Assembly (NCBI GenBank): GCA_013150955.1
Contig: JAADJD010000020.1
Span: forward strand, 124,001 to 188,000
Direction: 5' to 3'
DNA: 64,000 nucleotides
DNA from: Calditrichota bacterium
Lineage (GTDB): Bacteria; Calditrichota; Calditrichia; RBG-13-44-9; J042
The translations under genes were made by a program, and so were the position numbers. The notes beneath the pieces are model-generated. The model saw only the letters and a program-made list of their open reading frames with translations, was not told the origin of the DNA and did no database searches. Within the stretch, counting starts at the first letter, position 1. Every line of letters starts with the position of its first letter. Positions 15,929 to 44,303 of this stretch are shown here, in pieces.

Positions 15929-15929
15929 A

Positions 15930-20049: not shown

Positions 20050-20393
20050 AATGTGTGGATTTTTACACACCGGGGTGGAAAAAGTCCCACAAGGCACTCG
20101 CGGTTGCGCGGATTCCTTCATTTTCAAAACTCGCGCCAGCCTTCCCGATGTTTCTGAATTGCAACGTTACAACACCTGGCGTTTCCAAATAGCAACGATT
20201 TTCCTCCTTTTCGTTCAACAATAAACTTTCCCTATCTTTAAAAAATTCAATGAGATAATTGGCTTCCCGCTACCCGTGGCATTGAATTTGTAAAACTTAT
20301 CGGAAAATTCGACTGATTTCAGGAATTGATCACAGGAATGTGCGACGGGGATGAGGGTAACATTTCAATGAGGTAAATTGTGGGGAGGCAATC
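20050..20393 (+). other. Intergenic region upstream of the 16-gene locus, no gene seen
   Basis: This is the remainder of a 641-bp gap. It is AT-rich from about 20200 and must hold the promoter of the 20394–44071 gene run, but I found no -35/-10 pair that fits as well as the other promoters in the window. A GGGGAGG ribosome-binding site lies at about 20381–20387. Confidence 0.4.
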
Positions 20394-21266
20394 ATGCAAT
20401 TCCGGGTGAGTCTTTCCCTGTTTGTATTTTTTCTGGGCCTGTACCTTTCCGGTTGTGGTGGGGGATATCGGCTAACGGGTAAGGTGCAGGATGCGGCATT
20501 TGTTCCCCTGAACGGTGCCCGGGTGGTGGTGAAATATATGCAGCGGACCGATTCCATGGCCACCCGCACGGACGAAACCGGTATGTTTGTTTTTGAAGGG
20601 ATCAAGGAACCCCGGGTGGTGGTCAGGGCCAGCGCACCCAAGTACGTCCCCCAGGAAAAAGTCGTTCGCTTCCGGAAAAAGGAACAATCCGAAACATTCA
20701 TTCTGGAATACAAGTCGGCCAGTATCACCGGCAAGGTGGTGGATAGTCGCACGCAGGAGCCCATTGCAAACGCACGGGTGATGAGTGTGGATGGGGCCTT
20801 TCAAACCATGACCGATATCGACGGAAAGTTTACCATCAGTGGGCCGGGTTTAACGCCGGGTATAACTTACGTGCTTGAGATCTGGAAGGTGAACTACAAG
20901 CCGGAGCAGCGCACCGTTCAGGTGGCAGAGGCAGAAGATCGTGATATCGGGGTAATCCCCCTGATCCGCATGGCCGGTGCCAGCGCCGTTAAAATTGAAG
21001 TGGGGGCAGAACACGGCCTGGCCAGCGAGGAAGATGTGGAAGTCAGCACCGTGATTGGACGGGGGTTTTACAATCGGAAAATCGATGAATTTTTGCTGGA
21101 AAAGGAAAATTTCAGCTACCTGGAATTCAAGCAGTTGTTTGGCAAAGACCAGTCGGATGAGGCAATCCGGCTCAATCTTCAATCGCTGATTGAACAGAAA
21201 CGGGTAGAGCAGATCGACCGCAATCGATATCGCAGCCTGGATTATGTGCGGAAATATCAGAAGTAA
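20394..21266 (+). CDS. Lipoprotein with two carboxypeptidase-regulatory-like Ig domains
   Basis: A 290-residue protein with a lipoprotein signal (lipobox LSGC, Cys21). Two CarboxypepD_reg-like modules follow (about 25–100, starting YRLTGKVQDAAFVPLNGARV, and 105–190, starting SITGKVVDSRTQEPIANARV). The C-terminal helical region (about 225–290) is charged and reads like a small winged-helix or coiled segment (FSYLEFKQLFGKDQSDEAI). GGGGAGG lies upstream of the ATG. It is the first gene of a 16-gene run. The domains are structural or binding modules; no enzyme motif is seen. The role is unknown. Confidence 0.7.
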   Translation: MQFRVSLSLFVFFLGLYLSGCGGGYRLTGKVQDAAFVPLNGARVVVKYMQRTDSMATRTDETGMFVFEGIKEPRVVVRASAPKYVPQEKVVRFRKKEQSETFILEYKSASITGKVVDSRTQEPIANARVMSVDGAFQTMTDIDGKFTISGPGLTPGITYVLEIWKVNYKPEQRTVQVAEAEDRDIGVIPLIRMAGASAVKIEVGAEHGLASEEDVEVSTVIGRGFYNRKIDEFLLEKENFSYLEFKQLFGKDQSDEAIRLNLQSLIEQKRVEQIDRNRYRSLDYVRKYQK

Positions 21267-21333
21267 GTCAAAGTGCTCACAAGGGTCAATGGCCCATTGA
21301 TCTATTAATGGACTGAAAGTACAGGATGGGGGT

Positions 21334-23370
21334 ATGGGAAACAAATTACTCATTGTACTCAACCTGATTTTGATTTTCCTGTTGCTCATTGTGGTGGGGT
21401 TGTTGTTTCTGGTATTGCTGGATGGTCAGATTGAGCTTCCCATCTCGTTCCAACGGATGGCCCGGGAAGCGCCTTCCGAACGGGTTGAAGAACGGCCGGG
21501 CTCCCTGGAATCGCTTCCCCGGGATGAACGGGCGGCGACTCTAACTCCCGGAAAACGCATTCATTATAATCTGGAAGTGATTACAACTTCTCCCGATGCC
21601 CGTCCGCTGCCGGGTGTGGATGTTTTCATTAACGATCAGCGAGTGGGGCAGACCGATGAATCGGGAATGCTGATCATTGGTCGTCAACTAACCGAGGATG
21701 AAATTTACCAGCTCCGGGTGGCTCCTCAGCTGGCCGGCTACCGGCTGAGCAATCGGGAAGGCCCGATTGTGGTGCCAGAACAGAATTCCATCACTTACCG
21801 ATTTACTCTGGTTCCTGCCCGGAAAAAGAATGCCGTTCAGATTCGACTATCCCTGCAAACGAACGGATACCCCATCCTTGCACCACTGAAGTTGTACCAC
21901 GGATCGGAGTCGATTGCGGTGGTGGATCGTCCGGAGGTGACCATCTCGGTGGATATGGAGCGGTTGAGCGATCCCCTGCGAATCGAAGGGCCTTATTTTA
22001 AGCCTCAGAATTTTCAGGTGGATCCGGAAAATCCAGACGTAACCTTACCTCTGGAACCCCTGTTGGTGCAAATTCAGTGTGCCGATAGTGTGGGCATCTA
22101 CAACGATCGTCTGGAAGGGATAGAGATTTATTACCGGGGGCAGCGGGTGGCAGTGTCCAAAGCGGAAGGCAGGGCGCTGGTACACATCCCCCGACCCGGT
22201 TTCCTGGAACTTGTTTTTTACAAACCGCATGTATTCCCCAGGCAGAAGAAACGATTGCAAATTACCGATCTGTCTCAAGTTTATAAAGTCAATCTGATTC
22301 CCACCCCGCATTACTGCTACGTGCAATTTGTGGATCAGAATGAAAATCCCATTGCCGGTCAGGAAGTGTTTCTGGTCGGGCGCCGGGTATCCGAGAATCG
22401 ACGGACGAATGAGAAGGGGATTGTCAAATTTACCAGCTGGTTCCTGCGACCGGGGGTAAAGTATAATCTCCGCTTCCCTTCGTTCAACTACACCACCTCG
22501 GAATTTTCCATTGATGAGAGTTATTTCGATGCGGATCAGGTGATGGTTTATCAGGTGAATCTGGAGATTGAATGCCTGGTGGAGGCGGATCAGGCCGATG
22601 CGCAGATCGAAGTCTACGATCCCAGAGGACGGCTGGTGGCTTCCGGGACGGGCAAAGTCTCCACCCGTCTGGCCATGGGAAATTACAAGGCCGTGGCCAA
22701 AGTCAAAGGCGAAACCTATCGGAAGATATTTAATCCCGCGCGCGATCAGTATGTAAAGATCCGTACCACCGATATCGTTCAATTCTTAAAGAAAAAATTG
22801 CCCAGGGGATACAAACCAACTGAAGAGGACTATCAGGCGCTTAAAAATTACCCGGTTACCGATCCATTTTACAACGAAAGCCTGAAGTTACTGGGCCAGC
22901 TGGCCATGGAGCGGGAAGAATACGTGGTGGCCTATCAGGCATACAATCGGTATTACCAGGCCGTTACATTGTCCCGCTACGATCCCCAGTTTTTAACCCA
23001 CTTTGGCGAGGCCGCCTTGAAGATGGCCAAACGCGGTTCGCGGGAAAACCGGATGAACTTTCTATTGCGAGCAAAAGAACATCTGGAAGCCGCCCGTACC
23101 TACTACAAAGAAAAAATTGCCATGAAATATCGCGATGACTATGCCCTGCGCATTTTCTACGACCTCAGCGAAGTGAACTATCAGTTGTACATCATTTATC
23201 GCGATCTGGAAAATCCGGAATACGAGCGCATTGCCGAGGATGCCCAAATTGCCATCGAGGATTTTCTGTTTCGGTATGAAAAACTGTCTTCCGGTTCGCC
23301 TTTGAAGCGAAAGTACGAAAAGCAGTACCTCAGGGTAAAAGACATATACGAAAATCTAACCATTTACTGA
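21334..23370 (+). CDS. Membrane-anchored protein with Ig-like repeats and C-terminal TPR-like helices
   Basis: A 678-residue protein with one N-terminal membrane helix (about 5–29, very rich in Leu/Ile/Val) and no cleavage site, so it is probably anchored in the inner membrane with the rest in the periplasm. Residues about 70–450 contain several beta-rich modules of the carboxypeptidase-regulatory type (PLPGVDVFINDQRVGQTDESG; NPIAGQEVFLVGRRVSENRRTNEKG). Residues about 480–678 are alpha-helical with TPR-like spacing (EEYVVAYQAYNRYYQAV). The combination of regulatory-like modules and TPRs recalls T9SS accessory proteins such as PorE/PorW in domain content, but no homology can be claimed by eye. 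It lies 67 bp after the lipoprotein gene and 22 bp before the next. Confidence 0.65.
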   Translation: MGNKLLIVLNLILIFLLLIVVGLLFLVLLDGQIELPISFQRMAREAPSERVEERPGSLESLPRDERAATLTPGKRIHYNLEVITTSPDARPLPGVDVFINDQRVGQTDESGMLIIGRQLTEDEIYQLRVAPQLAGYRLSNREGPIVVPEQNSITYRFTLVPARKKNAVQIRLSLQTNGYPILAPLKLYHGSESIAVVDRPEVTISVDMERLSDPLRIEGPYFKPQNFQVDPENPDVTLPLEPLLVQIQCADSVGIYNDRLEGIEIYYRGQRVAVSKAEGRALVHIPRPGFLELVFYKPHVFPRQKKRLQITDLSQVYKVNLIPTPHYCYVQFVDQNENPIAGQEVFLVGRRVSENRRTNEKGIVKFTSWFLRPGVKYNLRFPSFNYTTSEFSIDESYFDADQVMVYQVNLEIECLVEADQADAQIEVYDPRGRLVASGTGKVSTRLAMGNYKAVAKVKGETYRKIFNPARDQYVKIRTTDIVQFLKKKLPRGYKPTEEDYQALKNYPVTDPFYNESLKLLGQLAMEREEYVVAYQAYNRYYQAVTLSRYDPQFLTHFGEAALKMAKRGSRENRMNFLLRAKEHLEAARTYYKEKIAMKYRDDYALRIFYDLSEVNYQLYIIYRDLENPEYERIAEDAQIAIEDFLFRYEKLSSGSPLKRKYEKQYLRVKDIYENLTIY

Positions 23371-23392
23371 AATTGATCAAGGGGGGTCGAGG

Positions 23393-24865
23393 GTGAGGCA
23401 ACACCACTTCACCAGCCGGTTGTTGGTCGTAGGGATCATCCTGATTGGGTTCGTGGGATGCCAGCAAAAACGGTTTAAGGATGAAACCATCATTCTACCC
23501 ACGGATCTATTCAATAATCAGAGGGATTACAATACGATGATATTTGAATCCCTGGTGGCCACCCAGCAAAACTCCGCAGATGTGGTGAAGATCCTGCCCG
23601 GTCTCTATGGTGCCTATCGCATGTGCGAGATCCTGTACGTGGCGAATTCGCTGTCCAATGCCATGCAGGATGAACTGGTACGTCATTTTCTGGAATATGC
23701 AGACATTCCCAATATCGGAAGTGCATTTTACCTGTATAACGCCCTCTGGTTTCTGGAACAGGGGCAAATGGCAAAGGCCCGACAGCAGGTGGAACGCTTC
23801 TTGAGAACTCCCGCAGAGAATCAATCGCCGACCAATCGGGCCATCGCCCAGTTTATTCAGAACTGGTTTCGGGAACGCAGCCAGGTTGGTCAACAGGCGA
23901 AATTGCAGGACATTCGGGATCAATTGTTAATCAGTCAAAAAGCCATCCGTCAGGTGGCTGGACAATTGCATTCCGAACGGTTCGCTTTTTTGAACGATCT
24001 ACAAAATCACTCCTTCATCAATGCCTGGCGGCGATTCCTGCGTCATGACGATCAACTGGTGGCACCTCTGTTTCAGGAAGTGGTTCAGGACACCTCTCCC
24101 CGCGCTGCCCTGAAGGAGGTTACCAAATATTATTATCCGCCAGCATTGTACCGCATTTTGTTTGAATTTTACCTGGAGACGTTCCAGTATCTGGCAGAAA
24201 CGTATCTGAATCGGCTGGAGCCTGGCTGGATTCAGGCGCTGAAAGAGACCGATCGACTGTATTTTATTTACCTGAATATTTATCTGAGCCAGTCCGGAAA
24301 ATACTGGGAAGCCCGGAGGGCAAGGAATTTCCTGGACATCGTGGAACCCTATCTGAAAACGCCTTTTCAGGAACGGCTGGTGGCCATTCATCGATCGTGG
24401 TTGAGCCAGCAGGATGTCTCCGATGTGGATCTGGAAGACCTGAAGGACAGTTATCCCACCTTTTACTACTATCTGGCCAGGGCCATTCGCACCTATTTCC
24501 AGAGTTTACAATTTCCGCGTACGGTTGACCTGTCGGCGCTGCAGGAGGTGGAGAAGGCACTGATCGAAACAGCGCCGGTGCTGGAGTATCGGAATTGGGG
24601 ACTGGCTTATCTGGGACTGGTCTATTATCAACTGGGCAAGTGGAAGTTGTGTCTGGCCAATCTCCGGCCGGCTTTTGATTGGGGCTACGACGCCCCGGAT
24701 GCCGATCCCGTAATCATGATGTACCTGAGCCATGCCTATTATATGGATCGGTTACAGATGGATGGCGGAAAAAGCATTTTAGAATATATGGTGGATTGGT
24801 ATCCGTTTTTAAAGCCACTGCGGCATGAATATGTGCGTGTGCTGACGTTTGTTTACGCAAAATGA
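23393..24865 (+). CDS. Helical lipoprotein of unknown function (490 aa)
   Basis: The GTG start has GGGGGG (23381–23386) six bases upstream. Residues 1–24 form a lipoprotein signal with lipobox GFVGC. The mature part is almost wholly alpha-helical, with many Gln, Arg and aromatic residues and TPR-like helix pairs (for example YNALWFLEQGQMAKARQQVERFL, and again near the C-terminus, LAYLGLVYYQLGKWKLCLANL). No catalytic motif is seen. It ends 10 bp before the substrate-binding protein gene, so it may be an accessory lipoprotein of that transporter. I do not recognise the family. Confidence 0.62.
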   Translation: MRQHHFTSRLLVVGIILIGFVGCQQKRFKDETIILPTDLFNNQRDYNTMIFESLVATQQNSADVVKILPGLYGAYRMCEILYVANSLSNAMQDELVRHFLEYADIPNIGSAFYLYNALWFLEQGQMAKARQQVERFLRTPAENQSPTNRAIAQFIQNWFRERSQVGQQAKLQDIRDQLLISQKAIRQVAGQLHSERFAFLNDLQNHSFINAWRRFLRHDDQLVAPLFQEVVQDTSPRAALKEVTKYYYPPALYRILFEFYLETFQYLAETYLNRLEPGWIQALKETDRLYFIYLNIYLSQSGKYWEARRARNFLDIVEPYLKTPFQERLVAIHRSWLSQQDVSDVDLEDLKDSYPTFYYYLARAIRTYFQSLQFPRTVDLSALQEVEKALIETAPVLEYRNWGLAYLGLVYYQLGKWKLCLANLRPAFDWGYDAPDADPVIMMYLSHAYYMDRLQMDGGKSILEYMVDWYPFLKPLRHEYVRVLTFVYAK

Positions 24866-24875
24866 GAGGGTAGGC

Positions 24876-26450
24876 ATGCAAACGAATCGTAAGATTATTG
24901 TGATCCTGCTTTTTGCGCTCACCTTACTGCTGACGGGAAAAGCTCAGATTGTTGGGCAGATTAAAAACGAGCTGGTCTATGTCGAACGGATGGATCCGGG
25001 AACCATTGATCCAATTACGTTTAGCAGCCTGGAAGCCCGGCGGGTGGTGGAAATTTTATTTGGCGCCCTCTACACTTTTGATGAGGATCGGAAACGTATT
25101 CCGGAATTTGCTCAGGATTATCCGGAATTGAGTTCAGACAATATGTCCTGCCGGGTTCGAATAAAACCCGGATTGCGCTGGTCAGACGGGAAACCATTGA
25201 CCGCCGATGATGTCATTTTTACCTATCAGGCGGTAATGAATCCGGAATCGGATTCGCCCCATCGGGAACTGTTCAATTATGTGGAAAACATTCAGAAGAT
25301 TGACTCGTTGACCATTCAGGTCAATTTCATTAAACCCGTAAAAGGCCCGGAGCGCTATTTGATGTTCTTCATTGCTCCCCGCCATCTATTCATGTCCACC
25401 AAAGTCAACAAAATGCTAACCTATTGTAAGAAACCCCAGGTCACCAACGGGGGCTATGTTTACGAACGTAGCAATCCCACAAAATACATTTTGCGCAAAA
25501 ATGAGTTTTATCGGGGACGCGGTGTACCCCAGATTGAAAACATTGCCATGTATGTGCACACCGATACCCGGGCGCATGTGTCCAATCTGAATAGCGGACT
25601 TTACAATATGGTGCCGTTTGTGCCACCATCCTATCTTGCAGAAGCCCGGAACAACTCGAGGCTGGTGGTCAAACCGTATTCTTCAAACTCCGTGCAATCC
25701 ATTGTGTTAAATTGCCAGCACCCGTTCTTAAAATTCAACGAAGTGCGGCAGGCATTGAATCTGGCCATCAATCGCCAGGATCTGTTGAGTTCCTTTTATG
25801 GAAATAATGGGGAGCTCCTCAGCGGGCCTTTTCCGTCCATGCATCGCGGCTACAATCCCGATGTAAAGCCCTATCCATTCAATCCCCGCCTGGCAGTCAA
25901 TATTTTAAAAGAACTGGGTTTCCGGGATACCGATGGCGATTCGGTTCTGGAGAAGGACGGGCAGCCGTTCCGATTGCGATTTCTGGTGCCTTACACGCAG
26001 GACGCCACCCTGGATCATTTATTCCGCTCCATCGCCGAGCAATTGAAAAACATTGGCATCGATGTTCAGTTAAAGCCCATGATTGGCGCCAATTTCGAAT
26101 ACAACGTGAACATGCGCAATTTCGACATTGTGTATTATGACTGGTATATGCAGAATCAGGCCTCGCCGTATCCCATGTTTATTAGCACGGAGGCCCGCCT
26201 GGGGGGAAAGAACATCGCGATGTACCAGAATGATCTGGTGGACAGTCTGTTGATTCAGGCCGAGACTCAACCCGATCTGGAATTCCAGACTAAGATCTTT
26301 CAGGAGCTGCATAAAATTTTGCATGAAGAAGCCCCCTGGATTTTCCTCTGGCATCTGGAGCACCACGCGGCGTACTACCGCTATATCAAAGGGGTCAGTA
26401 TCGAACCGTTTAACTTTTTCACCACCATCGAAAACTGGTTTATTCGCTAA
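24876..26450 (+). CDS. ABC transporter substrate-binding protein, family 5 (Dpp/Opp type)
   Basis: A 524-residue periplasmic binding protein. The signal peptide (about 1–26, ending GKAQ) lacks a lipobox Cys. Family-5 signatures are present: RVRIKPGLRWSDGKPLTADDVIFTY-like residues near 90–115, a central LNLAINRQDLLSS-like helix near 300, and the C-terminal LHKILHEEAPWIFLW region. It would deliver peptides, or another family-5 ligand such as nickel or oligosaccharide, to the adjacent permeases. I chose the ATG at 24876, with GAGAGGG six bases upstream; an upstream TTG at 24849 lies inside the previous gene. The start is 10 bp after the lipoprotein stop. Confidence 0.88.
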   Translation: MQTNRKIIVILLFALTLLLTGKAQIVGQIKNELVYVERMDPGTIDPITFSSLEARRVVEILFGALYTFDEDRKRIPEFAQDYPELSSDNMSCRVRIKPGLRWSDGKPLTADDVIFTYQAVMNPESDSPHRELFNYVENIQKIDSLTIQVNFIKPVKGPERYLMFFIAPRHLFMSTKVNKMLTYCKKPQVTNGGYVYERSNPTKYILRKNEFYRGRGVPQIENIAMYVHTDTRAHVSNLNSGLYNMVPFVPPSYLAEARNNSRLVVKPYSSNSVQSIVLNCQHPFLKFNEVRQALNLAINRQDLLSSFYGNNGELLSGPFPSMHRGYNPDVKPYPFNPRLAVNILKELGFRDTDGDSVLEKDGQPFRLRFLVPYTQDATLDHLFRSIAEQLKNIGIDVQLKPMIGANFEYNVNMRNFDIVYYDWYMQNQASPYPMFISTEARLGGKNIAMYQNDLVDSLLIQAETQPDLEFQTKIFQELHKILHEEAPWIFLWHLEHHAAYYRYIKGVSIEPFNFFTTIENWFIR

Positions 26451-26463
26451 GCGAGAGACTACC

Positions 26464-27384
26464 ATGATGAGATCACTGCTGAAAATAGCGGTTTTTGGCA
26501 TTCAGGTGATGGCGCTGCTGCTGGTGATTACCGCAATCGAATTCACCGTGTTTGTAAGTTCCCCGGCGGCTCGACAGGAAATGGGCAAATACATTCTAAA
26601 ATATTATCCCGAACTGGTGGATGGGGACGTGGTGATGGCCTCTCAGGAAGTGGATACCCGGCTTCCGCTAATGGCTTACTGGCGATTCTACTTCTTATGG
26701 ATGACCAATATTTTGAAGGACTGGAATTGGGGGTACAGCCAGTTCAGTGGGGAGCCATTGAGCCATTTGTGGGGTTATCCCCTGAGAACCACGCTATTGC
26801 TGGCCGTGATGGGGTTGTTGTTTTCTACAGGAATTGCGCTGTTTCTGGTGTTTCTTCAACGCAACTGGGGAGAAAGCCGCCCGGTGCGATGGTTTCTCCA
26901 GGGAACGCGATTTGTTTCCAGTATCCATTACATCATCCTGGCATATTTTGTCTATTATGGATTGAATTTAAAGAATCCTCCGTTGATCATCCCCGTGTTG
27001 ATCATCGCGGTGGGGAATGGGGTGTTAACCGATACCCTGGATCTCATTTCGGAGGATTTAAAGAACATCTTTTCGTCGCGTTATTATCAGGGAATTCGGG
27101 CGCGGGGTAGCAATGTGTATCGGCATCTGGCAAAACCCTTCACCATTTCCCTGGTGCGCATCATGAATGCCAAATTTCCCATGCTGCTCGGGGGAACCTT
27201 CATTGTGGAATACATCATGAACATTCGGGCAATGGGACTGGAAACCATTCAGGCGGTGTTACAGGATGATCATTTAAAACTCCTGGTGATTACGTTCCTG
27301 GTTACCATTTTCATACTCAGCTCCAACTTTTTCAATCGATTGGTGCAACAAAAACTGGATCCCAGACCGGTGATTGAGATATGA
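26464..27384 (+). CDS. ABC transporter permease, DppB/OppB-like
   Basis: A 306-residue inner-membrane protein with about six membrane helices (first at residues 5–25; others near 110–130, 150–170, 175–195, 240–260 and 280–300). The cytoplasmic loop YYQGIRARGSNVYRHLAKPF corresponds to the EAA loop that docks the ATPase. It pairs with the next gene as a heterodimeric pore. The ATG at 26464, after a GAGAG site, is chosen; a longer frame reaching back into the binding-protein gene is an overlap artefact. The periplasmic segment (about 30–80) is longer than usual for DppB and charged. The stop overlaps the next start. Confidence 0.86.
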   Translation: MMRSLLKIAVFGIQVMALLLVITAIEFTVFVSSPAARQEMGKYILKYYPELVDGDVVMASQEVDTRLPLMAYWRFYFLWMTNILKDWNWGYSQFSGEPLSHLWGYPLRTTLLLAVMGLLFSTGIALFLVFLQRNWGESRPVRWFLQGTRFVSSIHYIILAYFVYYGLNLKNPPLIIPVLIIAVGNGVLTDTLDLISEDLKNIFSSRYYQGIRARGSNVYRHLAKPFTISLVRIMNAKFPMLLGGTFIVEYIMNIRAMGLETIQAVLQDDHLKLLVITFLVTIFILSSNFFNRLVQQKLDPRPVIEI

Positions 27385-28241
27385 GAAAGTTGCGTCGATT
27401 AAAATACCTGCCCATTGGGGCGTTTCTAACCGTTTACTTTCTGCTGATTCTGTGGGGATGGCTGGATATTTTCCCCCGGCAATGGCGCGAGGTACCTCCG
27501 CGTACCATCGTTTCCCAGTATTATCCTCCCAGTGTTGCCCATCCCCTGGGCATTTTCTTTCAAAAGGATTTGTTAATCTCCTTTGTAAAAAGTGCTCCTT
27601 CGTCATTTGTTGCCGGAACCATCACGCTGCTACCATTTCTGGTGTTCGGTATTTTGCTGGGGGTGGGGTCTTCCATGAAGCAGGGAAGCTTACAGCAACT
27701 CTGTCATCGTCTGATCGAAATCATGAATGCCTTTCCTAAACTGGTGGTGCTGCTAATTTATGCCGCCCTGTTTGGAGTAAACATCTATTCTTTACTGATC
27801 CTTTTCGGCATCATTAGCGCCCCCAAACTGGCAGAGCTCATCCGGGGAAAAATCCTGGAATTGAAACGAGAAGATTTCATCGATGCCACCATTGCCCTGG
27901 GACTGCCCATCCGTACGATCGTGTTTAAACACATACTCTGGTACCATGGGCGTAACATAGTGGCGTCTCAAATCTTTTACATCTTCGCCATGGCCGTATT
28001 GATGGAAGCCAGCCTGTCCTATTTGAATCTGGGTATACGCTATGGCTATTACAGCTGGGGATTGATGCTCCACTATGCAACCAGTGTGGGGCACCTGTCT
28101 TTTTTCCGCTGGCCCTGGCACCCGGATTTTAATCTACCGGCCGTGCTGCCCAGCGTGGGGTTAATCGGTCTAACCTATTGTTTGATGTACATTTCTCGCC
28201 TGATCCAGGAAAGGGAAATGCAGATGAAGGGGATTTTATGA
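27381..28241 (+). CDS. ABC transporter permease, DppC/OppC-like
   Basis: A 286-residue permease. The N-terminal helix (about 12–30) is followed by a periplasmic loop with HPLGIFFQKDLL, the Dpp/OppC HPLGTD-like signature. A BPD_transp_1 domain (about 70–270) follows, with the EAA-loop motif FIDATIALGLPIRTIVFKHI. Typical OppC proteins carry a similar coupling sequence (A-A-x-x-x-G). The start overlaps the upstream permease by four bases (ATGA) and the stop overlaps the ATPase gene by four, so the five transporter genes are translationally linked. It forms the pore with the preceding protein. Confidence 0.87.
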   Translation: MRKLRRLKYLPIGAFLTVYFLLILWGWLDIFPRQWREVPPRTIVSQYYPPSVAHPLGIFFQKDLLISFVKSAPSSFVAGTITLLPFLVFGILLGVGSSMKQGSLQQLCHRLIEIMNAFPKLVVLLIYAALFGVNIYSLLILFGIISAPKLAELIRGKILELKREDFIDATIALGLPIRTIVFKHILWYHGRNIVASQIFYIFAMAVLMEASLSYLNLGIRYGYYSWGLMLHYATSVGHLSFFRWPWHPDFNLPAVLPSVGLIGLTYCLMYISRLIQEREMQMKGIL

Positions 28242-29413
28242 AACCATTGCTGGAAGTGGAAAATCTGACCGTGGCCATTCAGCGGCAAAACCAGTTGTTG
28301 TATCCCGCTTACCGGGTACAATTCGAGGTGGAGGTAGGGGAATTCGTGGGCATTGTAGGCGAATCCGGTTCGGGAAAAACGGTGACGATTTTATCCCTGT
28401 TAGGACTGGAGAATTTTTATCCCGGCGTGATAGGTGGGCAGGTGCGGTTTCGGTTCCGGGATGGCGAGGTGTCCATTCTGGATCGCCTGGACGACTTTGT
28501 GCGCTTCCAGAACGGAATGCCCCATAAGAACGTCATTGGCTGGCGACGTTCCATCCACCGAATATCCCGCAATTTACTGGGACGCAAAGTAGCGATCATT
28601 TTACAGGACAGCCAGAAGACCCTGAATCCATTCTTAAAAATTCACCAGCACCTGCGGGAAATGATTTTGCATAATGTGGAAACCGCCCGGCAACCGCAAA
28701 ATCCACCGGGCAGACCTCTATCGCTCATGTCATTTGTCCGGCGGCAACAACCGGCATTCGACACTCCGGTAAGCCCGGTCGCCCTGGATGCGGTGCAGGA
28801 GGAGGCCATACGGTTGTTAAGAAGGGTGCAGTTCCGGGAACCGATGCGGGTGATGAATGCTTATCCCCATGAATTGAGCGGAGGTATGTGCCAGCGAATT
28901 TCCATTGCGCTGGCGCTGGCCACCCGACCGGAATTTCTGGTGCTGGACGAACCGACCACGGGTCTGGACGTCACTCTGCAGGCTTCCTTAACCGATTTGC
29001 TTTTCGAAATCCGTCAACGGGAAAGCATGAGCGGCATTGTGATTTCCCATGACCTGCCATTCATTTCGCGGATTACCGATCGCGTGGTGGTCATGTTTTC
29101 TGGAGAAATCTGGGAAATTGGCCCGGTAAAGGAAATCATGCATCCGGAATTTCCCTGGAAGCACCCCTATACCCGGTTTCTCCTGCAGAGTGCCACCTCA
29201 CATCAGGGCGCCAGGAATGGCGTGTTTGTCCCCCGGCTGGAGCAGCGAAAGCGCAAGGGCTGCATTTTGCGTGCGGAATGTCCCCTGTATCGGCAGGTGA
29301 AGAAAGCCGCATTTCGGAAGAAGTGCGACACCCGCTGGCCAGAGTTTTTTCAGGTGTACCCCAGGCATCACATCCGTTGTTGGGCGTTTGAAAATGAAGG
29401 GAGCGTGAAATGA
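28238..29413 (+). CDS. ABC transporter ATP-binding protein, DppD/OppD-like (enlarged)
   Basis: A 391-residue ATPase: Walker A GESGSGKT (about residues 36–43), Q-loop ILQDSQKTLNPF, signature LSGGMCQRIS, Walker B FLVLDEPTTGLD, and a C-terminal oligopeptide-transporter tail with four Cys (GCILRAEC … C … HHIRCW). In this family the tail can bind an Fe–S cluster. It is about 60 residues longer than a usual DppD because of two insertions between Walker A and the signature (an RFRFRDGEVSILDRLDDF region and a segment around QNPPGRPLSLMSFV). The ATG at 28238 has AAGGGG six bases upstream and overlaps the permease stop. Confidence 0.88.
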   Translation: MKPLLEVENLTVAIQRQNQLLYPAYRVQFEVEVGEFVGIVGESGSGKTVTILSLLGLENFYPGVIGGQVRFRFRDGEVSILDRLDDFVRFQNGMPHKNVIGWRRSIHRISRNLLGRKVAIILQDSQKTLNPFLKIHQHLREMILHNVETARQPQNPPGRPLSLMSFVRRQQPAFDTPVSPVALDAVQEEAIRLLRRVQFREPMRVMNAYPHELSGGMCQRISIALALATRPEFLVLDEPTTGLDVTLQASLTDLLFEIRQRESMSGIVISHDLPFISRITDRVVVMFSGEIWEIGPVKEIMHPEFPWKHPYTRFLLQSATSHQGARNGVFVPRLEQRKRKGCILRAECPLYRQVKKAAFRKKCDTRWPEFFQVYPRHHIRCWAFENEGSVK

Positions 29414-32233: not shown

Positions 32234-32250
32234 AAGGGAGGATGGAAGGG

Positions 32251-33183: not shown

Positions 33184-33191
33184 GAGGGATT

Positions 33192-34388: not shown

Positions 34389-34410
34389 ACGGTAAAACAA
34401 GGGATAAACA

Positions 34411-36174: not shown

Positions 36175-36218
36175 AAATAGCGTTGCACGAATTGGAAAAA
36201 CCATAGAGGATGACAGCA

Positions 36219-37190
36219 ATGAGACGGATGATCCTTGGGATGGGCATCGGGTTGATGCTGATTGTGCCATTGGCCGCCATCAGTCCCGGTTATTTGCTGG
36301 AACTTTCTCCGGATGCGTCCAGCCTGGCGCTGGCAGGTGCCACCCAGGCGCTGCCATCGGGAGCGCTGGATATCTTTATCAACCCCGCGTTAATCGAACA
36401 GGATGGCGGCCTGCGATTGGCTCTGAGCAATTTTGTGGAATATCGAAACTATCAGTACATGGCACTTGGGGTCACCTTCCCCTTTCGAAAATATGGTACC
36501 ATGGGGGTCGGCATTCTGGGATTGCACGTTCCCGGCATCCAACAGTACGATGCCCTGGGCATGTATCTGGGGGAATTTTCCCATTACAACGCAGCGGTAT
36601 TTTTAAGCTTCGCCCGTAAGATCCTGCCATGGCGGTTTGGGGTGAATCTTAAATTTTTACGCTCGGGCTTTCTGGGCCTGTCGAAAAATCGAGCCGGAAA
36701 TGGGGTTGGAATGGATCTGGGTGTGCACTACGCGGTCTATCCCGGGGTTCAGCTGGGTGTGGTGTATCGCCTGGCGTTTCGCGTGTTCTGGGGAGACGGG
36801 TATTCCGAAACGATCCCCAAAAGCCTGAATCTGGCCCTTTACTGGTCGCCCAAACTACTGGGAAGTCGGTTTCTGGGAAGTGTGCTGGGTATCCAGCAGG
36901 TGAAGGGTGAACCGGCCAAATTAAACCTGGGTATCCGTCTGGCGCCGTTTCGGGATGAAAACAAGCTGGAACGTCTGGTGATTTATGGGGGCATGGGAAC
37001 CGTTAATATTGAAACGCGAAATTTGCAGATTGACCTGGCTGATTATTCTCGCGCCGAAGGGGTCTACAGCACCGGGATAACCCTGAAAGTGGGCACGCCC
37101 GGTGCATTTGTGTTTGTGCTGGATTATTGTTTCTGGTGGCATCGGGTTTTAGGGAACCGCCACTTGTTAACCACAAAACTTGAATTTTAG
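36219..37190 (+). CDS. PorV/PorQ-like outer-membrane barrel protein
   Basis: A 323-residue protein with a signal peptide (about 1–20). Its opening motif, LSPDASSLALAGATQALPSGALDIFINPALI, has the same plan as the PorV/PorQ start (A-x-x-x-A-M/L-G … N-P-A) but is more diverged than the protein at 15930. Repeated amphipathic beta strands run to a C-terminal TTKLEF. It probably sits in the outer membrane. The ATG at 36219 is preferred because GAGG lies nine bases upstream; the ATG at 36210 would overlap that site. Whether it is a PorQ, PorP or separate paralogue cannot be told by eye. Confidence 0.68.
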   Translation: MRRMILGMGIGLMLIVPLAAISPGYLLELSPDASSLALAGATQALPSGALDIFINPALIEQDGGLRLALSNFVEYRNYQYMALGVTFPFRKYGTMGVGILGLHVPGIQQYDALGMYLGEFSHYNAAVFLSFARKILPWRFGVNLKFLRSGFLGLSKNRAGNGVGMDLGVHYAVYPGVQLGVVYRLAFRVFWGDGYSETIPKSLNLALYWSPKLLGSRFLGSVLGIQQVKGEPAKLNLGIRLAPFRDENKLERLVIYGGMGTVNIETRNLQIDLADYSRAEGVYSTGITLKVGTPGAFVFVLDYCFWWHRVLGNRHLLTTKLEF

Positions 37191-37192
37191 CC

Positions 37193-40100
37193 ATGAAAAC
37201 AAAAAACATTGTGGGTTTCTTGTTTAGCATTCTTCTGGTAACCAGTCTGTTAGCGGAAACAACACCGCGGGTGTTTGAGGCCATCCAGTTTGTGGATCAC
37301 CGCGGTGAGCCGGTCAAGATTCATCAATATAGTCGGTGGGGGCCATATCTTTACCTGGTGTCGGAAAAGAACATTCTGTTTGAATTTAACCTCCACACCG
37401 GGGAGATGCACCGGATGATCCTTTCCGGAGCTCAGCTGGGTGCGGTAAGTGCCTTTGCCGCTTTATCGCGCGAGAATTTCCTGTTTGCCATGGATAAAAA
37501 GTTGTTCAAATTGCGCGTTCCCGCATTTTACCTGAAAGGCCCCGAGTATCCCGTCAAGGATCAAAAAATCACCGCCATTGTCCCCGTCGATGAAGAACAC
37601 GCCCTGATTTTGTATGAACGCTCCCTGATACTATACAATGTCCTTTCCGGTAAACACCGCGTGTTGTTACATCAGCAGAAGAAAGAGTATGGTCGGTTCC
37701 GGGGGCTGCGGGTCACAGCGGACGGGCACATCTGGGTGCTGGCGTTAAACGCCCTCCTGGAATTGAATCTCAGTGAATCCGGAAAATTCAATATCAAAAA
37801 GCATTCCTACTTTACGGCTCGGGATGTGACCCTGGATGCTAATGGGAATCTCTATATTCTCAGCAAAGAGGGATTACGGCAGGTTGGCCGTGAGGGAACA
37901 CAGCGCTGGCCGACACCTGCCAATATCAAAGGCATTTTCGTGGATCCAGCAGGTGGAATCTGGGTTTATAGCGAGTCGAAAATATACCAGCTGGATGCCG
38001 GAAATTTCATTCACTTACCGTTACCCAAAAAAATTGCCAATGAAAAGATTCTGGGAATGGCGGGTGGGGACTGGAATGAGATATTTATTATTGGCCGGGA
38101 ACATCTGTACTGTTTCCACGATATTCTTCAGCCGGATGATATTGCCACTCATCTGATCGAAAAAATCAACCGGTTTTATACGCCGCGGGCATTGTGGTAC
38201 TTTTGCCAGAGCGATATGCAACGCTTGCTGGAGTATTTGGACCGGTCGGATGATGAAGCCATCAATCGGCGCATCCTGGCCACCATTCTACCCTCCCTTC
38301 CTCAATTGCAGCAAAAAACCGGCATGGACCTGGCCATTGAACCCCATATTCTTCGATTGTCTTCGCAACTGGAACGCAAAACGCTTTTAAAACGATTGAG
38401 CGAGCAGATGGGAATGGAAAACTGGGCGCGGGGCGTTTTTCTCCACAAAACCATTCTGAAGAACGAACGCAGTATAAAGGATAAAATTCGAACCGAATTC
38501 GAGGTCGCTCAGTTGTTTGCCCGCGATACCAGCAATTACCCACTGGCCCGGTATTTGATCGAGAATCTCATTCGAAAATATGACAACATCATCTTTGAAG
38601 AAACCTTGAAAGATTCTCTTTATTTCCTGCTACTGAAATATTCCCGTGGTTTTCCTTTTACGCGGGATCCGGGGCTGGAACGCTACTGGAAGTATTTATT
38701 TGCGAATTCGACAGTTCCAGTGATCAGGGAATATGCCCGTCAGTATTTTTTCAAAAAACGGACCGATGCCAAGTTTGAGATAGAGAGGGATTCGCTGGCA
38801 CAATATCACATCTGGCGGCACGGGCAGACCATGCGCATGCTGGTACCGGTTGCCGAAGGGATCTGGTACCTGGATACGAATGGCCGCCTGCATTATCTGG
38901 ACACGCGCAACGGTGTGATATCCTCTCCGAGGGCCCTAAAACGTTTACGCCTCGATCGGTTGCTGGCGGTTTCCGACAGGGTGCTGGGTATTACCAATCG
39001 CGGCCGATTGCTCCAATTGTCCCTGAAAGGAGCGCAGGACTTTCAACCGGCACCGCCTTTTCCGGTAAAGAATGCCTGGGTTGCCGGAGCCGATATTATC
39101 ATCCTGGGTAAGCGAGGCAAACGCTGGTTGATCAGCAGTCTGGATGTGCGCGTGGGCTCCCGATGGAGCACCCCGGTCGAACTACCAATTGAACTGGCCG
39201 ATCTGAGTTTCATTTATGTAAGCAAAATTACGGCGCAGGCATACTTGCTGGTAACCCGGACAAAAGCCTATCGATATGATGTTACCAGCCGTCAGGCACG
39301 TAGTATTCAGCTGCCGCCCCAAATTTTAACCATCTCTGATTGTGTTCTGGATGATCAGCGCGGGTTTTATTTTGCCACCAACAATGGGCTCTGGTATTAT
39401 CGAGATCTGGATGGGAGCTGGAGTCACAAGTCGATAGAGGATGCGCTTCCGGAGACGGCCATCAGAAAATTAAGTTTTGATTACCGAAATGGGGTGCTGG
39501 CATTTGCTTCGGCAGATGTGGTGGGTATTCAGGACAGGTTCGGGTGGATGCTTTTCCGATTGCCGCCATTGAACGTAACCGCCTCTCCGCCATCCCATTT
39601 GCAATTTGATGCCCAATTGAATCTGTACGTGCTGCAGGAAACTCGCAGTGTGGTCTGGCAACGCAATCTTAAATTGGATTTGAACAACATGGTGGCCCGG
39701 CTGATGGATGCGGAGGATTATTTCCATCAGCGCCGTGCCATCCCTCACTTTATCCAGCTACTGAAGCGGGCGGAACGCATTCAGGAATTGTCGGATTGGG
39801 CGTCCGTCTATCAGGCGCTGTTATACATTCGCATGAAAAAATACAAAGAGGCGGTGGAAATCTATCAGTTAAAGCTGGGCGGAAGTCGGGCCCATTCTTC
39901 CGAATGGTTGAGTGATATGAATTTTCTTGTTCTGGTGGATCAGCTGTTCGATCAACAAAAGTGGGAAACGGTTCTGGATGTGAGCAAAACGTTGTTTCCT
40001 TACCTTCGGGATCAGGCGGTACGGTCTTTAAGCCGGGAATATTATTTGAAAAAAATGAGGGAGGGAGGGCCCCGGCAGTTCACTCGAGACAAACTGGAAC

Positions 40101-40426
40101 TGGCACTCTGGCTACGGGAAACCACTGAGGATGCATCGTTTTCCAGAAAGCTGGAGTACGAGATCCAGCAATTGTTGATGGCCCTGTACATGGCAAGGGA
40201 TGCCGAGTTTGAAAAATATCTCTCCCGGGTTGTGCGCAATTTTTCGCAGTCGACTTTTCTACCCATCTGGTACTTTTTGTGGGCGCGATATGCCTATGAC
40301 AATGGCAATTTCCAGAAAGCCGTACAGTACATCACCAATCACGTGGAGCATGGGGGAGATCGCTGGTTGGGAATACTTTCCGGGCCATTCTACCTGCGAT
40401 CGTTAGTCCAGCTGGTTCTGCAATAA
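37193..40426 (+). CDS. Large exported double beta-propeller protein (1077 aa)
   Basis: A signal peptide (residues 1–22, ending LLAE) is followed by a first propeller (about 25–315; blades such as VTADGHIWVLALNALLELN, VTLDANGNLYILSKEG and VDPAGGIWVYSESKIYQL). A helical linker (about 320–540) precedes a second propeller (about 545–830), and a helical TPR-like C-terminus (about 840–1077) completes it. The blade sequences are of the Reg_prop/NHL type found in periplasmic sensor domains, but no kinase or receiver domain is attached. No enzyme motif is seen. It starts 2 bp after the barrel gene. The function is unknown; a scaffold or sensor is plausible. Confidence 0.65.
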   Translation: MKTKNIVGFLFSILLVTSLLAETTPRVFEAIQFVDHRGEPVKIHQYSRWGPYLYLVSEKNILFEFNLHTGEMHRMILSGAQLGAVSAFAALSRENFLFAMDKKLFKLRVPAFYLKGPEYPVKDQKITAIVPVDEEHALILYERSLILYNVLSGKHRVLLHQQKKEYGRFRGLRVTADGHIWVLALNALLELNLSESGKFNIKKHSYFTARDVTLDANGNLYILSKEGLRQVGREGTQRWPTPANIKGIFVDPAGGIWVYSESKIYQLDAGNFIHLPLPKKIANEKILGMAGGDWNEIFIIGREHLYCFHDILQPDDIATHLIEKINRFYTPRALWYFCQSDMQRLLEYLDRSDDEAINRRILATILPSLPQLQQKTGMDLAIEPHILRLSSQLERKTLLKRLSEQMGMENWARGVFLHKTILKNERSIKDKIRTEFEVAQLFARDTSNYPLARYLIENLIRKYDNIIFEETLKDSLYFLLLKYSRGFPFTRDPGLERYWKYLFANSTVPVIREYARQYFFKKRTDAKFEIERDSLAQYHIWRHGQTMRMLVPVAEGIWYLDTNGRLHYLDTRNGVISSPRALKRLRLDRLLAVSDRVLGITNRGRLLQLSLKGAQDFQPAPPFPVKNAWVAGADIIILGKRGKRWLISSLDVRVGSRWSTPVELPIELADLSFIYVSKITAQAYLLVTRTKAYRYDVTSRQARSIQLPPQILTISDCVLDDQRGFYFATNNGLWYYRDLDGSWSHKSIEDALPETAIRKLSFDYRNGVLAFASADVVGIQDRFGWMLFRLPPLNVTASPPSHLQFDAQLNLYVLQETRSVVWQRNLKLDLNNMVARLMDAEDYFHQRRAIPHFIQLLKRAERIQELSDWASVYQALLYIRMKKYKEAVEIYQLKLGGSRAHSSEWLSDMNFLVLVDQLFDQQKWETVLDVSKTLFPYLRDQAVRSLSREYYLKKMREGGPRQFTRDKLELALWLRETTEDASFSRKLEYEIQQLLMALYMARDAEFEKYLSRVVRNFSQSTFLPIWYFLWARYAYDNGNFQKAVQYITNHVEHGGDRWLGILSGPFYLRSLVQLVLQ

Positions 40427-40460
40427 ACCACCAGTTAATCATAAAGAGGGTGGGTGAGGC

Positions 40461-43199
40461 ATGAGCAGGACAAATCAATTGTTCCGGTATGTTGGCCTCT
40501 ATGTTCTGATAGCGTGTCTGGGGACGGGCCAGATAAATGCGAGCCTGTTTCAGTGGGTTCAGCGATTTCCTTCGGGAGGCCTAACCCCGATAAAGATTCT
40601 GTTTTCCCCCGATCAAACCATCTATCTATATGCCAATGGATTGGATGAAAACTACCGAAACGTCAACCGCCTGTTCATGTTCGACAGATCAGGTAATTTT
40701 CTGCTAAAACAATCGGTACCTCTGGGCACATCCGTGGTCTTAACGGATGTGCTTTTGCTACCGGGTGGGGAAACCCTTTATGTGGGACAGGATGAAAATG
40801 ATTTTAGCGGTTATGTGGGAATTGCCACCGGATCCCAATCGGCACAACGGTTCCCCCTGCAAACGCCGGAAAATCGTCCCCTGGCCGTCAAGTCGGCGAC
40901 AATCAAGGATCGTTCTCGCGTGCTTCTGGCAGGGTGTCTGGAGTCTCCAAAGGGCATTCTGGAGGGTCGGGACGGGTACCTGGCGTTTCTGGACATTCCC
41001 AACCAAAAAGTTTTCCATCGGGTTCTGGGGAAGCCGGGCATCGAGGAAGGTCTCAATAGTGCAGTGGTGTTGTCGGATGGGCGTGTGGTTGCCGGTGGTT
41101 ACGAATATCAGGATGGGCAATACAATGGCTGGTTGGTGGTGCTGGATTCCACGTTGACCCGGGTTTTGCTGGAAAAACAGTTTCCCAATGGATGGGTCAA
41201 TCGCGTGTTTCGGATGCCGGATGGGGGATGGGGAATTCTGGGCTATCGTTTTTCCGAAACGCAACGGGAAAAAAACGCCTGGTTTGTGGTGTTTGACAAA
41301 AATATGCAACTGCGATGGGAATGGCAATCCAGTCTCTGGGGGGATGATGAGTTTCGGGATGGCTTTGTGACCGTCGATCGGCGTCTGGCATTTTGCGGTT
41401 ATGCCACGCTCAGTGGAAGTCGAAAGGCCATATTTATGAAGTTCGACTGGATGACACGTCAGAAACTGTTTCAAAAACCGCTGTCCCGTTTTAAGTCCAG
41501 TGTGGCTCAGGTGTTGTATGAATTGCCCACGGGACGCATTCTGATGGCGGGTGAGCTACCCGAAAGCCATGCCGGTTTTATCCTGCAGGAACAGGGCATC
41601 AACAAACGGGCGTATCCTCCGCAAATTTTTCTGGCCTACCAGGTGCTGGATGCCAACAGCAATCGAAAGGTTGAGCCGGGCGAAAATTATTTTCTGAAGA
41701 TTCAGATTGATAACCGCGGGAAAACGGCGTTGAAAAATGGCGAACTGGTCATTCAGGCGGACGACGAGGGGCTGGGCATCCTGGAGCAGCAGGTCATTTT
41801 AATTGGGGATATTTTTCCCGGTCAAACCCGCCTGGTGCAGCGCAGTTTTCAGGCCGCCAGCTATATCCAGCCCGGGGTTTCTCATATTTACCTGAGGGTT
41901 CGGGAGATGGGCAATACATATCTGGAACGATCGGTTAAAATCCAAAAGGCACCGGGCCGGAGTTTGCAGATTTCATTTAACGTATTTCCCGGTGTGGTTT
42001 TCCCGGAAGACACCACCACGGTCACCCTGCAGATAAGAAATAGTTCGTCCTTTGCGGCGAAAGATTGTCGCCTGAAGATCCTGTCCAATCATCCCGCCAT
42101 CAAATTGATGGGCGATGTGGATCGGTCGCAACTGGAAATCGGTTCGGGGGAGGAAATCTCTCTGGAGTTTCGGTTGTTTGTGGCCCCCACCTACACCGGG
42201 CCCGAAAAGCTGCCTCTGGTATTGTACCTGCAATCCCGGGCATCCAACCTGTCCCTTCGGCGCCCCCTGGATATTCGTCTGGAAAAAGCGCCCACGGAAA
42301 TGGTGGTGACCTCACCCCCCGCCGTATCCCCAACCGCAAAGCAACTGGCCCCCATCGATGTCGATATGCGACTGAATCCCGAAATTGATATTGAGGCCAA
42401 CATTCCCAGAATCGCAAAAAAAGATCCTCTAAAATTTGCTGTGGTTATTGGCAACCGGGATTATCGACATGGGATTGCGCCGGTAGATTATGCCATTCGA
42501 GATGCGTTTGTGTTCAAGGAGTATTTGATAAACATGCTGGGATTCGACGAAGGGAATGTGTTTTTCCTGCCCAATGCCACCAAGTCGGATTTTGAACGCT
42601 TTTTTGGGGATGAACGAAATGTACGCGGGAAATTGTACAACAGCATTGTTCCCGGAAAGTCCGACGTGATCGTCTTTTATTCCGGTCATGGTGCACCGGG
42701 ACGTTCGAAAGATGAGGACAATTATCTGGTTCCCGTGGATGCCGACCCCAATTTTCTGCGGATGACGGGTTACCCATTAAATCAGTTTTATCAAAATATC
42801 AGCCAGATTCCCGCACGCAATATTCTGGTGATCATCGATGCTTGCTTTAGTGGGCAGGTGTATCAGGGGATCAGCCCCATTTTTGTGTATGTTCCACCGG
42901 AAGAGCGCGTTGCCCCCCATTTTATTGCGTTGACCAGTACTTCGGAAACGGAGACCTCCGTCTGGCTGGAAGACAAACGGCACAGTCTGTTTACTTACCT
43001 GTTTTTGAAGGGATTGCAAACATTTGAGGCCGATCGCAATCGCGATCTCAAGATTACCATAAAAGAAATGTACGAGTATTTAACGGATCCGATCAATCTG
43101 TCCCACAGCATCCCTTATCTGGCGCGTAAATTGCGCAATGTGGAGCAGCGACCATCGCTCTTTGGTAAGAATGTTCAGTTTATTCTGGTAGAGCGGTAA
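40461..43199 (+). CDS. Exported caspase-like (peptidase C14) protease with propeller and Ig-like domains
   Basis: A 912-residue protein. After a signal peptide (about 1–28) comes a beta-propeller-like region (about 35–390) and Ig/CARDB-like modules (about 395–620, for example VEPGENYFLKIQIDNRGKT). The C-terminal caspase-fold domain (about 650–905) starts KFAVVIGNRDYRHG and has the catalytic His743 in YSGHGA and Cys795 in DACFSG. Both catalytic residues are intact, so it should be an active cysteine protease, probably with the Arg/Lys preference of bacterial metacaspase-type enzymes (known of the family). Export places it outside the cytoplasm. It is followed by a DUF4384 protein, a frequent neighbour of such proteases. 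Confidence 0.85.
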   Translation: MSRTNQLFRYVGLYVLIACLGTGQINASLFQWVQRFPSGGLTPIKILFSPDQTIYLYANGLDENYRNVNRLFMFDRSGNFLLKQSVPLGTSVVLTDVLLLPGGETLYVGQDENDFSGYVGIATGSQSAQRFPLQTPENRPLAVKSATIKDRSRVLLAGCLESPKGILEGRDGYLAFLDIPNQKVFHRVLGKPGIEEGLNSAVVLSDGRVVAGGYEYQDGQYNGWLVVLDSTLTRVLLEKQFPNGWVNRVFRMPDGGWGILGYRFSETQREKNAWFVVFDKNMQLRWEWQSSLWGDDEFRDGFVTVDRRLAFCGYATLSGSRKAIFMKFDWMTRQKLFQKPLSRFKSSVAQVLYELPTGRILMAGELPESHAGFILQEQGINKRAYPPQIFLAYQVLDANSNRKVEPGENYFLKIQIDNRGKTALKNGELVIQADDEGLGILEQQVILIGDIFPGQTRLVQRSFQAASYIQPGVSHIYLRVREMGNTYLERSVKIQKAPGRSLQISFNVFPGVVFPEDTTTVTLQIRNSSSFAAKDCRLKILSNHPAIKLMGDVDRSQLEIGSGEEISLEFRLFVAPTYTGPEKLPLVLYLQSRASNLSLRRPLDIRLEKAPTEMVVTSPPAVSPTAKQLAPIDVDMRLNPEIDIEANIPRIAKKDPLKFAVVIGNRDYRHGIAPVDYAIRDAFVFKEYLINMLGFDEGNVFFLPNATKSDFERFFGDERNVRGKLYNSIVPGKSDVIVFYSGHGAPGRSKDEDNYLVPVDADPNFLRMTGYPLNQFYQNISQIPARNILVIIDACFSGQVYQGISPIFVYVPPEERVAPHFIALTSTSETETSVWLEDKRHSLFTYLFLKGLQTFEADRNRDLKITIKEMYEYLTDPINLSHSIPYLARKLRNVEQRPSLFGKNVQFILVER

Positions 43200-43246
43200 G
43201 GGACGCAAATCGGAATCTGCAAGGAATGATGAGGAGATCCGGCTTC

Positions 43247-44071
43247 ATGAAAGTACTCATCCTTCTGTTATGTTTTGGACTGGGCATTCAGGCGCAGACC
43301 CATTCGGGGGTGGTGGAGGCGATTGGGGAAGCATCGCTGGAATATTTATCCCAGAAAGAAGCCATCCAGCAGGCCATGATGGAAGCCCGGCGCCAGGCCA
43401 TCGAGAAGGTCTGTGGTTCTCAAATTGCCGGCCAAAAAGTGGTTTCCAATTTCCGCCTGGTCGCCGATGTGATCGAAAATTTAACCACTGCGAAAGTCAC
43501 GGTGCTGGATTCCGCCATCCAGATGGTGGAAAGTGGAAAGACGCCTTCTGGAATTCCCATCATGCGGGTCAGGGCACGCATTCGGGCGCAGGTAAATTGC
43601 GGAGTGCAACAGCCGGATCCGGGATTTCACCTGCGTATTCAGCTGAGCAAGACCCGTGTGGCCCATGGGGACACCTTTTACCTGACCATCACCCCCAGCA
43701 AGGAGTGTTACCTCAACATTTTTAATGTGACCGGTGAAGGCGATGTGTACCTCTTATACCCGGGGGCAGATCCCCGATTGCGCCAGCGACAGCTGCAGGC
43801 AAATAAGCCCTGGCGCTTTCCCTATCCGCTCAAAGCGTTTTGTCCACCGGATCGATCTCAGGTGACCGAATGGATTTATGTGGTGGGCACCCGATTTCCC
43901 ATCGAGCTTTTTCCGTTAAAAGAAGGCGGCCCTTATGCCGAAACCGATGCCCGCATGGGACTGGTCTGGAAAAGCCAGCGCGCTTTTTACAACGATATTT
44001 TGTTGCAATTACTGGAAATTCCCAGGAACCAGCGTGCGGAATCCCGTGAAGCCATTACGGTTTATCGCTAA
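43247..44071 (+). CDS. Exported DUF4384 domain protein
   Basis: A 274-residue protein: signal peptide (about 1–17, ending IQAQ), an N-terminal LPP20/FlgT-like module (GEASLEYLSQKEAIQQAM, about 25–110), then a DUF4384 domain (about 125–255) with the typical YLNIFNVTGEGDVYLLYP motif. DUF4384 is found fused to, or beside, caspase-like proteases and kinases; its biochemical role is not established. I chose the ATG at 43247 since TGAGGAG lies ten bases upstream and the signal peptide begins there; an ATG at 43226 is possible. It is the last gene of the 16-gene run. Confidence 0.76.
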   Translation: MKVLILLLCFGLGIQAQTHSGVVEAIGEASLEYLSQKEAIQQAMMEARRQAIEKVCGSQIAGQKVVSNFRLVADVIENLTTAKVTVLDSAIQMVESGKTPSGIPIMRVRARIRAQVNCGVQQPDPGFHLRIQLSKTRVAHGDTFYLTITPSKECYLNIFNVTGEGDVYLLYPGADPRLRQRQLQANKPWRFPYPLKAFCPPDRSQVTEWIYVVGTRFPIELFPLKEGGPYAETDARMGLVWKSQRAFYNDILLQLLEIPRNQRAESREAITVYR

Positions 44072-44271: not shown

Positions 44272-44303
44272 AAAAAGCCAGGGGAAGGATCCCCTGGCTT
44301 TTT
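44272..44303. terminator. Strong bidirectional intrinsic terminator
   Basis: AAAAAGCCAGGGGA (44272–44285) and TCCCCTGGCTTTTT (44290–44303) form a perfect 14-bp stem with a 4-nt loop. It has T-runs on both strands, between the convergent DUF4384 gene and the susD-like gene. In 44072–44271 I see only a small extra hairpin (CCTCCG … CGGAGG, 44248–44264). Confidence 0.9.

Follow-up and report, generated by a model that had tools for sequence, protein, structure and literature searches.

The 64,000-nucleotide stretch of Calditrichota DNA analysed here (the window) carries a run of 16 co-directional genes on its + strand, at positions 20394-44071. The core of this locus consists of the first 14 genes, from CRD1 through Prop1077 and including an ATP-binding cassette (ABC) importer, and these 14 genes are one co-inherited functional unit that is present or absent as a block. 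The block is probably an unrecognised envelope-spanning uptake machine. Gram-negative bacteria usually encode the outer- and inner-membrane steps of nutrient uptake separately, and the two are mostly investigated separately as well. An invariant set of 14 genes for a surface protein, a barrel, scaffolds and a full importer would offer a direct way to ask whether the membranes are bridged for import, and it would link parts of type IX secretion (T9SS) to uptake.

The unit is defined by conserved gene order. Using tblastn of the window's proteins against contigs, we found that G002, G017 and, on two contigs, G003 keep genes 1 to 14 with unchanged order and strand. The synteny check proposed in a first-pass annotation of the window thus came out positive for the importer with the TPR and other envelope genes, which are collinear in three other genomes, and this rules out chance neighbours. 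The four carriers are distantly related members of one phylum, with G017 belonging to another family than the rest. The complete G017 genome, one contig with 4,978,541 bases, probably represents Caldithrix abyssi; if so, the block is carried by a cultivated species and is testable. Pairwise amino-acid identity of the core proteins across carriers ranges from 15% (Prop1077) to 75% (solute-binding protein, SBP), and the gene order has thus been kept despite far-drifted sequences. Even individual junctions recur, with TPR615 overlapping the upstream ATPase gene in all four genomes (-8, -4, -8 and -28 bp) and Prop1077 starting 2 bp after the barrel gene in each. The importer and PD40 are the best conserved parts (identity to the window 64-65% within the family and 41% to G017 for SBP; 53-55% and 36% for PD40, the highest of any non-importer protein). 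Lower values were obtained for CRD2tm (25-40%; lipoprotein-like in G017), LpTPR (20-37%) and Prop1077 (29-30% to family members and, along the full length, 19% to G017), the last being, with T9SSd, among the least conserved. The genes flanking the block in the window (GH31, SusC, SusD, an upstream PorV and a TonB-receptor) are not near it in G017, and the unit therefore persists as a block in another place.

Its extent is defined by an empty site. In G001, a genome of the same genus (98% complete), GH31 and SusD/SusC stand side by side on one contig, with ~0.4 kb from the GH31 stop to the SusD terminator vs 24.5 kb in the window, and no copy of PermB, SBP, PD40, TPR615 or the caspase was found anywhere in that genome. 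The order of 14 genes fixed in four genomes, together with this clean absence from a close relative, marks the block as a real functional unit. Within the phylum, this SBP clade is restricted to four of 40 genomes, namely the window's own, G002, G003 and G017. A scan of GTDB species with SBP, from which the genome of the window and perhaps some close to it were excluded, returned G003 and G002 (WGBF01, RFHE01) at 64-67% identity and nothing else above 27%. Full-length matches to PD40 and to TPR615 were each found in 4 of 385 genomes, in both cases the same four carriers; the two profiles thus gave no further genome with the non-importer half alone, although diverged copies could be missed because scoring was confined to the 3-4 top candidates of each genome. 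Importer genes conserved without their neighbours had been named in the first-pass annotation as the observation that would speak against a unit; this SBP clade occurs only with its neighbours, and importers of ≤27% identity elsewhere are ordinary ones. Beside these, profiles from the four carriers detected no partner genes; the sole exceptions were single, isolated domains, a CRD in L079 and a barrel in L092. The latter, a Nitrospira SBP near a PorV-like gene, was rejected as a related locus, its context being unrelated on inspection.

All 16 genes were confirmed in the window, and the largest gap between them is 67 bp, as first annotated. With the start codons chosen, on which these values depend, the gaps from 5' to 3' are 67, 22, 10, 10, -4, -4, -4, -8, 17, 8, 22, 41, 2, 34 and 26 bp; four of the five overlaps of 4-8 bp counted earlier are recovered, while the fifth needs an upstream TTG as start. 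Across the region, terminator-like sites do not exceed the frequency found in shuffled sequence. Promoter-like sites are fewer than expected in the first half and number 19 in the second (13.3 expected, sd 3.7), which is no evidence of promoters. The likely promoter region upstream of CRD1 is not present at the G001 empty site. The very strong terminator placed after the last gene is a real hairpin, but it also stands beside the SusD gene at the G001 empty site and is therefore not peculiar to the block; either it is part of the convergent SusD side or it acts in both directions. Neither a tRNA in the 64-kb window nor a composition shift at the block was found, on which an island at a tRNA was rejected, and no riboswitch or other Rfam element was detected. 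Coordinates of all features are compiled below.

Features of the locus and its edges (window coordinates; CRD, carboxypeptidase-regulatory-like domain; MITE, miniature inverted-repeat transposable element)
Feature	Description	Coordinates	Strand	Evidence
CRD1	lipoprotein, two CRDs; first core gene	20394..21266	+	CarboxypepD_reg 82 bits; lipobox LSGC
CRD2tm	membrane-anchored, weak CRD/MG-like sandwich domains; core	21334..23370	+	Pfam below cut-off; conserved in 4 genomes
LpTPR	lipoprotein; core	23393..24865	+	lipobox FVGC; no Pfam match
SBP	AppA-like family-5 solute-binding protein; core	24876..26450	+	SBP_bac_5 216 bits
PermB	importer permease; core	26461..27384	+	below Pfam cut-off; Opp2B/Opp1B matches over its length
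PermC	importer permease; core	27381..28241	+	BPD_transp_1 35 bits; Opp4C/Opp2C matches
AtpD	importer ATPase, C-terminal Cys-rich oligo_HPY-type tail; core	28238..29413	+	Pfam/NCBIfam matches
AtpF	importer ATPase; core	29410..30441	+	ABC_tran 119 bits; DppF/OppF-type matches
TPR615	exported TPR protein, hydrophobic C-terminal tail; core	30434..32233	+	TPR_19 46 bits
TPR317	exported, N-terminal TPR, beta-rich middle, hydrophobic C-terminal tail; core	32251..33183	+	predicted model pLDDT 78; alignment
PD40	TolB-like periplasmic beta-propeller; core	33192..34388	+	PD40 55 bits; TolB 7mx5 E 2e-11
T9SSd	surface protein, CHU_C-like segment, type A T9SS sorting tail; core	34411..36174	+	CHU_C 41 bits; TIGR04183 28.7 bits
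Barrel	PorV/FadL-type outer-membrane barrel; core	36216..37190	+	PorV_fam match; low-confidence barrel model
Prop1077	1077 aa, exported, propeller-like and TPR-like stretches; last core gene	37193..40426	+	weak domain matches, synteny
C14 caspase	caspase-like protein, N-terminal region and CARDB-like domain; accessory	40461..43199	+	Peptidase_C14 59 bits
DUF4384	DUF4384 protein; accessory	43226..44071	+	Pfam match; orthologue seen in G003 only
5' intergenic region	likely promoter region	19753..20393	+	contains MITE-like inverted-repeat element 19851-20029
Terminator	hairpin	44272..44303	.	also at G001 empty site (SusD side)
MITE-like elements	inverted repeats	3474-3745, 8682-8809, 17084-17209, 19851-20029, 49010-49026, 56794-57096, 57883-58011		inverted-repeat ends

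Separately from the block, the window holds MITE-like inverted repeats of ~115-300 bp with ends like CCACGAATTACACGAAT (18 matches vs 0.24 expected). None lies inside the 16-gene run and one (19851-20029) marks its 5' edge. Two others bracket a second block (8682-17209; genes 8975-17021, among which are those for a TonB-dependent receptor and for a PorV-family barrel) that is also missing at this place in G001, and the absence and the bracketing repeats together suggest repeat-associated gain or loss of this second block.

The importer is complete, as the first-pass annotation had held: an SBP_bac_5 protein, two permeases and two ABC ATPases are encoded together, all five supported by Pfam/NCBIfam matches, and the family-5 SBP and oligo_HPY-type ATPases correspond to those of Opp/App/Dpp importers. 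Among the matches listed, no subunit reaches an NCBIfam equivalog cut-off. Walker and signature motifs can be read in both ATPases, and the importer looks functional. When SBP was compared by profile with solved structures, its best PDB match was AppA (1xoc, E 4e-53). The missing Opp/Dpp peptide-binding Asp was considered as a sign of a non-peptide ligand and dropped, since AppA, too, seems to be without Asp at the aligned position.

Nine of the 14 core genes are envelope genes. The lipobox Cys of CRD1 is kept in all four orthologues, and LpTPR may have TPR character. The structure prediction for TPR317 called for earlier was, like that for the barrel, built from a four-sequence alignment; its TPR part matches 3ma5 (Z 10.3, rmsd 2.5 over 88 residues), a comparison that tests mainly residues 10-188. 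In each of the four genomes, TPR615 and TPR317 share an unusual conserved tail, in which a hydrophobic stretch precedes a terminal Arg. The sorting tail of T9SSd passes the TIGR04183 cut-off (23 bits) and falls below that of PF18962 (23.2 against 27 bits); it is meaningful because the carriers possess the T9SS translocon SprA, SprA_N being found in 37 of 40 genomes of the phylum, all block carriers included. The barrel scores 63.3 bits against NCBIfam PorV_fam, below the cut-off of 90. When its low-confidence model was compared with solved structures for a 14-strand FadL/PorV-type fold, OmpG, CymD, FadL, TodX and T9SS PorV (chains 6h3i_F and 8gl6_F) matched with Z 18-20. Overall, the CRD, TPR, PD40, type A sorting-tail, PorV-type barrel, C14 and DUF4384 assignments of the first-pass annotation are supported, whereas its Reg_prop propeller is weak (E 0.007, below the Pfam cut-off).

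Downstream of the core, the content changes between families. The caspase and DUF4384 genes follow Prop1077 in the window and in G003, and the G002 contig ends inside a homologue of the caspase gene. The caspase appears exported and has the catalytic His and Cys of C14 peptidases in SGHG and DAC motifs. No C14 domain was detected in the G017 genome; there, 29 bp after Prop1077, follow two FHA proteins, a VWA-FHA protein, a PP2C phosphatase, a protein without Pfam match and two Ser/Thr kinases, one carrying PASTA. The caspase/DUF4384 pair is therefore a family-specific 3' add-on, confined to one family, and because G017 keeps the 14 genes without it, the caspase is not required for the block's basic role. 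As separate observations, the G017 set (FHA / FHA-RDD / VWA-FHA / PP2C / kinase / PASTA-kinase; L070 5201-13971) stands ahead of ParA/ParB genes, and the caspase orthologue of G003 (L069, reverse strand) carries a single in-frame TGA that separates the N-terminal part from the CARDB-caspase part, a point mutation, an assembly error or a split gene.

For the mechanism, we infer a bridge, an inward direction and a substrate as follows. T9SSd and the barrel would collect substrate at the outer membrane; the periplasmic TPR, propeller and CRD proteins would hold this outer part to the importer; and the AppA-like SBP would hand the substrate, most likely oligopeptides, to the permeases of an AppA/Opp-type ABC importer placed in the inner membrane by family and fold. 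The 3' genes, caspase and DUF4384 in one family and FHA/kinase/phosphatase genes in G017, may act as exchangeable regulators or effectors. Our leading reading, a single operon that encodes such an envelope-spanning uptake apparatus and is present or absent block-wise, we place slightly short of an even chance. It draws on the conserved order with its recurring junctions, on the empty site, on family or fold assignments for the importer, surface protein, barrel, lipoproteins, TPR proteins and propeller, on the SprA of the carriers, on AppA as nearest solved relative of SBP, and on the precedent of the PorE-PorP-CTD complexes described below. A more ambitious version seems possible but doubtful: an undescribed class of trans-envelope machine in which a T9SS-displayed protein, a PorV/FadL-type barrel and a TolB/PorE-like scaffold would be joined physically to an AppA-type importer; the whole would come and go as one block, and its caspase or kinase outputs would be interchangeable. 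Several points weigh against an uptake apparatus of this kind. Co-inheritance shows common function, not a physical complex, and four carriers are known, one of them outside the family. Among relatives of SBP, sugars, nickel and heme also occur as ligands. For the barrel, the model has low confidence (pLDDT 56).

The same parts could instead serve chiefly for assembly or anchoring at the surface, as a side-system of the T9SS whose importer recycles or senses peptides such as cleaved sorting tails or murein peptides. In Porphyromonas, a single protein, PorE, unites TPR, propeller, CRD and OmpA_C (PMC5053529); PorP, the barrel bound by PorE, in turn binds a C-terminal domain (CTD) protein of the surface (PMC9143113). 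These PorE-PorP-CTD complexes of surface protein, barrel and periplasmic TPR/PD40/CRD protein have been described experimentally (PMC9143113, PMC5053529). The non-importer kit of the block matches such T9SS accessory parts (sorting tail, PorV/PorQ-type barrel, PD40/TolB propeller, TPR, CRD), the T9SS is present, and envelope genes make up most of the core. However, a Pfam search matched OmpA_C in none of the 16 proteins, and the domains joined in PorE lie on separate proteins; the likeness to T9SS accessory proteins drawn in the first-pass annotation is thus real as a toolkit and lacks the OmpA_C of PorE. The conservation of importer and PD40 over T9SSd and Prop1077 is also a better fit to a machine organised around uptake, and we regard the assembly alternative as unlikely, though a serious contender.

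Considerably less probable is a peptide-signalling device, in which the importer would take in a signal peptide and the 3' genes would be the output. Both families do hold signalling or proteolysis genes at the 3' position, with gaps of only 29-34 bp, but the caspase and nine envelope proteins appear exported while the kinases are cytoplasmic, neither a gene for a peptide precursor nor one for a cytoplasmic receptor was identified, and signalling would not need the barrel and several of the periplasmic proteins. That the importer takes up oligosaccharides and not peptides, in connection with the GH31 and SusCD genes next to it, is improbable to a similar, slightly greater degree. In thermophiles, oligosaccharides can be ligands of family-5 binding proteins (the mannoside binder 4pfu is among the SBP structure matches), and in the window the block lies between GH31 and SusCD. 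Yet G001 has both without the block, on which a link to them was rejected, neither adjoins it in G017, the conserved block contains no glycosidase, and the closest solved SBP relative binds peptides. The role first suggested for the locus, with the caspase producing peptides at the surface or in the periplasm for uptake by the importer, draws on the intact His/Cys dyad of an enzyme encoded in the operon in the window and G003 and on a binding protein of oligopeptide type. C14 peptidases generally carry out specific processing rather than digestion, and with the 14 genes in G017 unaccompanied by a detectable C14 caspase, this supplier role in the core mechanism falls away as very improbable.

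No described system with this composition was found among the open-access papers searched, in agreement with the first-pass annotation, and the uptake apparatus we propose is best placed by its partial likenesses. It shares all five subunits with normal motifs with App/Opp/Dpp importers, its SBP being nearest to AppA, whereas ordinary loci of that type are without the nine envelope genes found in this operon. Bacterial C14 and DUF4384 pairs likewise adjoin a caspase domain with a His/Cys dyad to a DUF4384 gene; here, the pair is an add-on to a larger operon and is missing from the carrier of the other family. With SusCD uptake loci the block has a functional analogy, one locus for outer-membrane capture and inward transfer, but it is without a TonB-dependent receptor or SusD, and an ABC importer provides the inner-membrane step. 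The PorE-PorP-CTD complexes have in common with it a sorting-tail surface protein, an outer-membrane barrel, TPR, a PD40 propeller and CRD; in the block, these domains are on separate polypeptides without the OmpA_C peptidoglycan anchor, the barrel is PorV/PorQ/FadL-like rather than PorP-like, the sorting tail is of type A, and the set is joined to an ABC importer.

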